Shown here piece after piece: positions 22,632 to 54,496 of a stretch of DNA of 64,000 nt. A program made the position numbers and the translations under genes. This DNA comes from Nocardioides marmoribigeumensis (GTDB taxonomy: Bacteria > Actinomycetota > Actinomycetes > Propionibacteriales > Nocardioidaceae). Position 1 is the stretch's first letter, and each line of letters begins with the position of its first letter. The notes beneath the pieces were generated by a model. It saw only the letters and a program-made list of their open reading frames with translations, ran no database searches and was not told the origin of the DNA. Where the stretch lies: NCBI RefSeq assembly GCF_031458325.1, contig NZ_JAVDYG010000001.1, positions 3,596,001 to 3,660,000 of the forward strand, given 5' to 3'.

Positions 22632-22714
22632 AGTTTCACTAGGTACCTAGTGACTTTGGTGCTTCCCGAGCGAAGTTTCGCTCGGGAAGCACCAGCTCTG
22701 CCGCTGGTGTACGG
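22632..22714. repeat. Palindromic intergenic element, copy A
   Basis: The perfect 16-bp palindrome CACTAGGTACCTAGTG (22637-22652) is followed by a hairpin whose arms 22658-22674 and 22677-22693 match over 17 bp (GGTGCTTCCCGAGCGAA and its complement). A tail with CTCTGCCGC follows (to 22714), shared with copy C. The element fills the gap between convergent tsaD and the beta-propeller gene. It is related to copies B and C. Confidence 0.85.
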
Positions 22715-22720
22715 CGGCCC

Positions 22721-38527: not shown

Positions 38528-40081
<1,554 letters not shown>

Positions 40082-40094
40082 GCCGCTGGGGTGC

Positions 40095-40182
40095 GGTTTC
40101 ACTAGGTACCTAGTGAACCTGTCACTCCCCAAGCGAAACTTCGCTCGGGGAGTGACAACATCACTAGGTACCTAGTGAAACC
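40095..40182. repeat. Palindromic intergenic element, copy B (complete, 88 bp)
   Basis: The whole element is an inverted repeat. Perfect 22-bp terminal arms (40095-40116 and 40161-40182) each contain CACTAGGTACCTAGTG. Between them a 17-bp hairpin (40121-40137 and 40140-40156, GTCACTCCCC(A/G)AGCGAA, one mismatch) sits in the centre. It lies between convergent guaB and a methyltransferase gene. Confidence 0.9.
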
Positions 40183-40194
40183 GAAGCGGCCCCG

Positions 40195-40959
40195 TCAGGC
40201 GCGGGCGGTCACCAGCCGCGCGCGGACGGGTACGTCGACCGGGCCGTCGCCGGTGACTCCGAGCCGCTCGCCGCAGCGCCGCATCAGCGCCTCGCGGTGG
40301 GCCTCGTCGAGCGAGGCGACGTAGACCCCCGCCGGCCCGACGCCGAGGGTGAACGGGTGCCACCACTCCTCGAGCGAGGGGAACCCGACGCTCAGGTCGA
40401 CCGCCTCCTCGGTCACGTCGGCGAGCCCGGCGTCGCGGAACAGCTGGACGAGCTGGCCGGGGCGGGCGCCCGGGAGGTGGTCCTCGTGCGGGCCCTGCGG
40501 GTCGAGGTCGTGGACGGCGGCGAAGAAGAAGCCCAGCGGGCCGTGCTCCGGCGCGAGGTTCCACAGCGTCGCGGCCACGGTCCCGCCGCGGGTCACACGG
40601 GCCATCTCGCGCAGCCCGGCCACGGGGTCGGCCATGAAGTTGACGACCAGGTTGGCCGTCGCCAGGTCGAACGACGCGTCGGGCCAGGGCAGCGACTCGG
40701 CCCCGCCGCGGCGTACGTCGACCCCGGGCAGCCGCGAGCCGAGCGCCTCGACGAACGAGGTGGACGGGTCGACCGCCGCCACGGACGCGGCGCCGAGCCG
40801 CTCGACCAGCAGCGAGGTCAGCGCCCCCGGGCCACAGCCGACGTCCACGGCCCGCTGCCCCGGGCCGATCGGCAGGCGCTCGACGAGGGCCCGGGAGAGG
40901 GGCCCGGAGAAGCGCCCCATGAACGCGTCGTACGCCGACGCGGCGACCGCGAAGCTCAT
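40195..40959 (-). CDS. Class I SAM-dependent methyltransferase
   Basis: The 254-residue protein begins MSFAVAASAYDAFMGRFSGP and has the SAM-binding motif VDVGCGPGALTSLLVERLG, the acidic post-I residue in AAVDPS, and FDLATANLVVNFMADP as motif IV. It belongs to the UbiE/Methyltransf_11 type; substrate unknown. ATG 40959 follows GAGGAGGAG at good spacing. It is divergent from guaB3 over about 117 bp. Confidence 0.87.
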   Translation of the reverse strand: MSFAVAASAYDAFMGRFSGPLSRALVERLPIGPGQRAVDVGCGPGALTSLLVERLGAASVAAVDPSTSFVEALGSRLPGVDVRRGGAESLPWPDASFDLATANLVVNFMADPVAGLREMARVTRGGTVAATLWNLAPEHGPLGFFFAAVHDLDPQGPHEDHLPGARPGQLVQLFRDAGLADVTEEAVDLSVGFPSLEEWWHPFTLGVGPAGVYVASLDEAHREALMRRCGERLGVTGDGPVDVPVRARLVTARA

Positions 40960-54375: not shown

Positions 54376-54458
54376 CAGTTTCACTGGGTACCTAGTGATG
54401 TTGTCACTCCCCGAGCGAAGTTTCGCTCGGGGAGTGCCAGTTCTGCCGCACGAGTACG
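54376..54458. repeat. Palindromic intergenic element, copy C
   Basis: CACTGGGTACCTAGTG (54382-54397, one change from the palindrome) is followed by GATGTT, as in the reverse complement of copy B, and a hairpin GTCACTCCCCGAGCGAA / TTCGCTCGGGGAGTGCC (54403-54419 and 54422-54438). The tail TTCTGCCGC corresponds to that of copy A. It lies between the convergent GMC gene and the MTHFR-like gene. Confidence 0.85.
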
Positions 54459-54496
54459 CCGCGCCAGCGGCCCGGGCGGCGTACGGCGAGGGCGGG

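Follow-up and report, generated by a model that had tools for sequence, protein, structure and literature searches.

To our knowledge, RAYT is the one kind of enzyme with which REP-like repeats have been associated. In REP/RAYT systems a nuclease gene lies between two inverted palindromes, gene and palindromes coevolve, and the repeats are species-specific and present in more than 100 copies (PMC2817692). The palindromes carry a GTAG or CGTC tag, and a word search of the text describing it found no actinobacterial terms (PMC3733652). Binding to inverted repeats of their own promoter has been reported for AbiEi antitoxins (PMC7319586).

The palindromic elements studied here resemble REP, BIME and REPIN sequences with RAYT in being short extragenic palindromes that occur singly, in pairs and in composite forms (PMC2817692). 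They were found in a window of 64,000 nucleotides (bases 3596001-3660000) of Nocardioides marmoribigeumensis (G000), whose 4.44-Mb genome is on a single contig. The palindromes of the window are probably non-autonomous derivatives of a mobile palindromic element, the autonomous form of which would be a gene unit of about 1.25 kb (333957-335207), organised like REP/RAYT with a different enzyme.

Palindromic elements in the window

The elements consist of a palindrome (P) and a hairpin (H), and are designated full (P-H-P) or half elements (P-H-tail). The initial annotation had placed three palindromic copies at 22632, 40095 and 54376, and direct reading of the sequence located all of them there. 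Copy A (22632..22720, + strand) is a half element with its palindrome side facing the tsaD stop; its palindrome (TCACTAGGTACCTAGTGA) lies at 22636..22653 and its hairpin at 22656..22695. Copy B (40095..40182) is a full element and, as had been described, a complete 88-bp inverted repeat with perfect 22-bp ends, the left (40095..40116) and right (40161..40182) palindromes being arranged around a central hairpin of 38 nt (40120..40157). Copy C (54376..54465, + strand) has a palindrome with one mismatch in the core (54381..54398) and a hairpin at 54401..54440; like copy A it proved to be the half element that had been proposed, i.e., palindrome, hairpin and a different tail. Elements were delimited by sequence, BLAST and folding, palindromes by sequence, pattern match and folding, and hairpins by folding.

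With at most one mismatch, CTAGGTACCTAG had four sites in the window and none in 100 shuffles. The RNA folding energy of copy B was -70 kcal/mol on one strand and -75.9 kcal/mol on the other (z about -15.6). A known RNA family was ruled out for the palindromes, Rfam giving no match within the window at the gathering threshold. All three copies are flanked by convergent genes, at tsaD, guaB and a cholesterol-oxidase-like GMC gene, respectively. As to the half-element tails (e.g., 22696-22720 of the window), an apparent degenerate third copy of the hairpin arm was seen in the sister species G002, and tails in both G000 and G002 often hold a GTACGNCGG-like stretch.

Copy number and placement in the genome

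In the whole genome of G000, 62 sites were at most three mismatches from CACTAGGTACCTAGTG, versus seven for the reversed control. BLAST of copy B gave 40 separate elements, 22 full and 18 half, with the two palindromes of full elements 62 bp apart. The genome-wide search for the motif, which the annotation had proposed, was also carried out in G002, where 44 elements with a hairpin variant of their own were found (one, at 696729, is a palindrome without hairpin). Both counts are BLAST rows merged by hand; a single G000 match of 15 bases (E 1.63) was omitted, and 40 of the 41 first-look candidates were scored. A first pattern scan across genome contigs returned no match, and the genome itself was possibly outside that scan.

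All 40 elements of G000 are intergenic. They occupy 21 convergent, 16 tandem and 3 divergent gaps, and the element-free gaps of the same fetched DNA comprise 53 convergent, 280 tandem and 64 divergent ones; genes were called by a custom codon-based caller trained on G000 DNA and applied also to the other genomes. With only 21 of 40 elements convergent genome-wide, what the window copies show is a tendency rather than a rule. The statement that each copy lies between convergent genes accordingly held for the three window copies, but a placement always between convergent genes was ruled out once the orientation of the flanking genes had been tabulated for the genome. The start of the palindrome core is separated by 6-19 nt from the stop codon of an adjacent gene in 31 elements; in the remaining nine it lies farther off, overlaps a called gene or has no such stop nearby.

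A stretch of 1.04 Mb of the G000 chromosome (about 2.45-3.49 Mb) holds no elements; when 40 points were placed uniformly 10,000 times, an equally large gap appeared in 0.14% of the draws.

Gene units with inverted ends

Inverted pairs of half elements occur four times in G000 and seven times in G002. The G000 pair at 333957-335207, which is outside the window, and the G002 pair at 999477-1000755 enclose homologous genes that are 64% identical and lie at different chromosomal places. At the locus of the G002 gene unit, G000 has both ends with about 200 bp between them and no gene, its own gene being elsewhere. In G001, a relative of the gene lies at the same place as the G002 unit, as read from the flanks, and has a different palindrome.

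Two further pairs surround other genes, which were named by eye from their translations: a sigma-factor-like gene and a second gene in G000 (2091928-2093436), and a methyltransferase-like gene in G002 (736488-737585). Cargo capture is a possible explanation of the sigma-factor-like and methyltransferase-like genes inside these pairs.

For each relative of the gene, 420 bp of upstream sequence was compared with 420 bp of downstream sequence in reverse complement, at a threshold score of 60. Inverted flanks reached this score in 69 of 79 relatives from genome contigs, mostly Nocardioides and Marmoricola; among the controls, none of 110 neighbouring genes reached it, and 3 of 234 mismatched pairs of flanks did. 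All 79 loci were counted, including L222 and L229 with only about 110 bp downstream, and two of the ten relatives below the threshold were ended by a contig edge. In direct orientation 19 of the 79 also scored at least 60, because the ends are palindromic. A second set had inverted flanks in 55 of 61 close and 7 of 9 weaker relatives; the 79- and 61-locus sets are reported apart since they partly overlap (L276 and L297 are one gene). In a third set (30 loci from 22 genomes) inverted flanks were found at 20 loci. Below the threshold were one locus each in G002, G003, G004, G153, G471, G530, G363 and G342 (score 54), as well as one of the two loci of G366 and one of the two of G196 (score 58). 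Two of these ten, the G003 and G004 loci (L384, L385), are cut by contig ends, as is L366 elsewhere in these sets, and the flank test is invalid for all three. As sequence comparison of the flanks shows, close relatives of the gene are nearly always bounded by inverted ends.

Other types of ends were also observed. Weaker relatives (L215, L216, L358-L365) show a second type of inverted ends, beginning TGTAACGCG or similar, and in some relatives outside Nocardioidaceae (L287, L288, L291, L377 and L379) the inverted ends are composed of repeats of a short unit, e.g., CGCCAGCCTTCC or CGCCTGCCTT. In G002, the nuclease-gene relative at 3805423-3806309 (L213, L217) is in two pieces and has degenerate ends, which looks like a decaying unit.

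The gene units were situated between convergent genes in 49 of 69 cases, versus 31 of 285 neighbouring gene pairs. A converging gene was present downstream in 64 of the 69, and the unit edges were mostly at most 25 bp from a stop codon. Sequence comparison thus places the insertion sites right behind stop codons, and most gene units between convergent genes. Among tandem settings in the 69 units, the unit gene was oriented mostly against its neighbours (15 '--' vs 2 '++'), which is an orientation bias.

Correspondence of dispersed palindromes and resident genes

A clear palindrome was recognised in 42 of the 69 gene units, and 40 of these palindromes differ. Their halves paired at 0.93 when taken from the same unit and at 0.60 when swapped, i.e., covariation of the palindrome between genomes is strong. 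Inside G000 covariation of the hairpin arm is weak, the T/C-versus-A/G pair being Watson-Crick in 27 of the 40 copies, wobble in 8 and mismatched in 5. Selection on structure had been suggested from arms that differ between copies and still pair; the arm changes inside G000 bear this out only weakly, and the comparison between genomes does so.

Twenty-five genomes with dispersed palindromes, taken from the looser pattern search described below, were compared: the commonest dispersed palindrome was at most 2 of 24 nt from the flank of a resident gene in 16 of them (permutation mean 2.9, maximum 8; 2000 permutations). At most 4 nt separated them in 21 of 25 genomes (permutation mean 9.1, maximum 17), and both flanks matched in 11 of 25 (permutation mean 2.2). 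Copies beside a tested gene were excluded from this comparison, and 12 of the 25 genomes are represented by a single dispersed copy. The comparison omits G176, whose sole listed palindrome is the gene flank, and G085, G089, G091 and G242, whose genes were searched but for which the table holds no palindrome. Where a genome had several tested paralogues, usually one fitted the dispersed palindrome and the others did not. In G112, G162, G163 and G211 (4 of 25), the dispersed palindrome was more than 4 nt away from that of every gene tested; these genes were restricted to matches with E below about 1e-70, with G162 as the exception (best 4.5e-22), and weaker relatives were left out. The palindrome differs between genomes and, in most of those tested, matches the dispersed palindromes of its own genome.

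Palindrome distance was correlated with the distance of the winged helix-turn-helix (wHTH) part of the protein (rho 0.174, reached by 5 of 1000 permutations) and of the middle AbiEi part (rho 0.219, 4 of 1000). With the nuclease part the correlation was not significant (rho 0.080, 144 of 1000). Of 142 items, 76 were kept after 54 without a clear palindrome, 8 without an inverted flank and 4 with stops had been dropped, and dereplication left 67 genes; a stricter dereplication gave the same picture. Small as the effect is (rho 0.17-0.22), these distances fit the AbiEi part as the one that recognises the palindrome. The earlier proposal of a binding site for a dimeric protein gains support, since the same palindromes flank a gene whose product is a DNA-binding, nuclease-like protein.

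The encoded protein

The element-rich genomes examined carry a gene whose product combines an AbiEi-antitoxin-like DNA-binding part with a Vsr / I-Bth0305I-like nuclease fold. AbiEi_4 matched 41 of 53 members, the nuclease-like MTES_1575 matched 3 and DUF559 matched 2. In three members tested, PADLOC AbiEi models matched mainly the N-terminal half and NCBIfam had no model. A PDB sequence-profile search yielded only two chance-level matches, and comparison of folds was more informative. In Foldseek, the AlphaFold2 model (mean pLDDT 92.4) was similar to the AbiEi antitoxin 6y8q (E 2.8e-5) and Rv2827c 1zel (E 1.6e-4), as well as to the catalytic domain of I-Bth0305I, 3r3p (TM 0.77 on the target, probability 1.00), and to Vsr 1cw0 (probability 0.97, E 0.069); the I-Bth0305I match has a modest E (0.025) and ranks below three mitoribosomal chains. 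In an alignment of the 53 members of the family itself, E206 and E249 are invariant and D238, D251 and K255 are conserved in at least 90%. The protein probably cuts DNA.

A phage-borne gene was ruled out, the G000 protein having no match among 50,697 phage records at E 1e-5. There were two weak matches among plasmids.

Distribution and mobility

In G002, an element is found at the matching place for 6 of the 40 G000 copies, at five loci, and 34 copies have no counterpart at the same place, as determined by blastn of flanks and gene matching, in which further shared copies could hide behind very diverged flanks. The sites of copies A, B and C behind tsaD, guaB and the GMC gene carry no element in G001, which belongs to the same genus-level group as G000, or in G002 (about 180 bp read per gene). 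The same is true of G003 behind tsaD and guaB (about 180 bp read), and a GMC relative is absent from the fetched DNA of G003. The tsaD gap of G001 holds an unrelated GC hairpin and the GMC gap of G002 another unrelated hairpin. Since few places are shared with G002 and sites A-C are empty in the relatives, the family moves. The suggestion of a REP/MITE-like mobile palindrome was therefore strengthened, most copies being at different places in G002 and a gene for a DNA-binding, nuclease-like protein lying between such palindromes. As regards empty sites in relatives, they were recovered at the level of gaps lacking an element; a base-exact empty site was not found at the available divergence.

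Of the 341 genomes of the family, 10 had the exact palindrome type, in some cases at one site alone. A looser pattern matched 50 of 391 genomes sampled from a larger group, the order, and 46 of the 50 belong to Nocardioidaceae; the reversed control matched eight genomes with one or two sites each. Many of the genomes with the looser pattern carry a perfect palindrome of their own. Within the genus, gene and repeats are both present in G000 and G002. In G003 and G004 there are distant relatives of the gene only (best E 3.7e-38 and 3e-30), and the repeats were not found by the patterns used.

Traces of insertion were also sought. Scanning of offsets and lengths of 2-9 in 22 and 15 full elements revealed no clear excess of target-site duplications, and this expectation of the annotation was not borne out. 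A classical U-tract terminator was ruled out around copy B, a terminator scan of both strands of 39900-40400 being empty. The elements sit right behind stop codons, a placement compatible with the domesticated bidirectional terminator suggested in the annotation, and the strong inserted hairpins may have a secondary role in ending transcription in both directions.

Alternative explanations

Half-element pairs also flank other genes, and the AbiEi-nuclease gene could therefore be passive cargo, its ends being mobilised by some other transposase not linked to them or through recombination in the host. The pairs around sigma-factor genes in G000 and a methyltransferase in G002 speak for this, as does the fact that the transposase search covered PF01797 alone. 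However, it is unlikely, because the same gene family lies between inverted ends at 69 of 79 loci with many different palindromes, the dispersed palindromes match the flanks of the resident gene, and palindrome divergence tracks the AbiEi part of the protein. A role of the elements mainly as immobile bidirectional terminators, kept alike by gene conversion within the genome, would account for strong hairpins that are intergenic in 40 of 40 cases, convergent in 21 of 40 and, at the palindrome core, 6-19 nt away from a stop in 31, and for the unrelated hairpins in two of the same gaps in relatives. It is nevertheless very unlikely given that 34 of 40 copies lack a same-place counterpart in G002, that sites A-C are empty in relatives, that the distribution is patchy (10 of 341 family genomes), that whole gene units with inverted ends exist and that three copies are in divergent gaps.

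The binding of AbiEi antitoxins to inverted repeats of their own promoter (PMC7319586) also raises the idea that the palindromes are autoregulatory operators of an AbiEi type, copied by chance. This would leave unexplained both the inverted copy downstream of the gene and 40 copies near stop codons, and is highly improbable. Ordinary REP elements moved by RAYT, a Y1 HUH transposase, would have the same architecture, with a gene between inverted palindromes, coevolution and species-specific repeats (PMC2817692). Nevertheless, Y1_Tnp (PF01797) had no match in any of 13 genomes, including element-rich ones, versus matches in 5 of the 14 controls; to the extent that RAYTs are captured by PF01797, REP elements with RAYT were ruled out and this explanation is hardly tenable.

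Relationship to known systems

The architecture is that of REP/RAYT, but RAYT is absent from the 13 genomes and the fold is different; the elements are therefore regarded as working like REP/RAYT and not as a member of it. As in REP/RAYT, a cognate nuclease gene lies between inverted palindromes (69 of 79 loci), though the enzyme is another, and the genome-specific palindrome matches the resident gene (to within 2 nt in 16 of the 25, against an average of 2.9 in permutations). Unlike REP/RAYT, no Y1/HUH transposase was found in the 13 genomes searched, the enzyme here being AbiEi-like plus Vsr-like; there are about 40 copies compared with more than 100 for REPs (PMC2817692); a hairpin is present besides the palindrome; and GTAG and CGTC are absent from both strands of copy B, the copy read for these tags.

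Other described systems share single features. The predicted model has the catalytic-domain fold of I-Bth0305I / Vsr-like homing endonucleases, whereas the gene here is bounded by inverted palindromic ends, has multi-copy non-autonomous derivatives and, in G000, encodes a protein unmatched in the phage records (50,697; E 1e-5). The N-terminal AbiEi fold and the PADLOC and Pfam matches recall the AbiE type IV toxin-antitoxin, of which AbiEi binds inverted repeats (PMC7319586); in contrast, the protein here has a fused nuclease domain, and there is no room for a toxin gene with inverted ends at most 420 bp away on each side at 69 of 79 loci. Short non-autonomous copies share terminal inverted repeats with a longer gene-carrying unit as in MITEs, but no target-site duplication was found and no known transposase was identified.

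We infer that the AbiEi-nuclease enzyme brings about the movement. The AbiEi-like module would bind the palindrome and the nuclease would cut either the element ends or a target hairpin located after a stop codon; repair or single-strand processing could then insert the gene unit or the short P-H-P form. In searches of open-licence PMC texts for such terms, no title or abstract connected DUF559 or AbiEi-nuclease proteins to palindromic repeats. Nor was a described link of the enzyme family to mobility found, although the way in which the system would work is like that of a known kind. With some hesitation, we lean towards a new class of mobile element, in which an AbiEi fold would act as palindrome reader of a homing-type nuclease and spread its own gene and short palindromic derivatives into hairpin regions behind stops, with many palindrome 'dialects' across Nocardioidaceae, as a REP-like invention independent of RAYT.

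The analysis connects a protein family, seen by Pfam mostly as an AbiEi-like domain, with palindromes that are specific to each genome in dozens of Nocardioidaceae. If the proposed interpretation is true, it would represent a second, unrelated way of making REP-like elements, would suggest a function for an orphan protein family and would offer many natural protein-palindrome pairs for studies of DNA recognition. The elements also illustrate the colonisation of regions behind stop codons.
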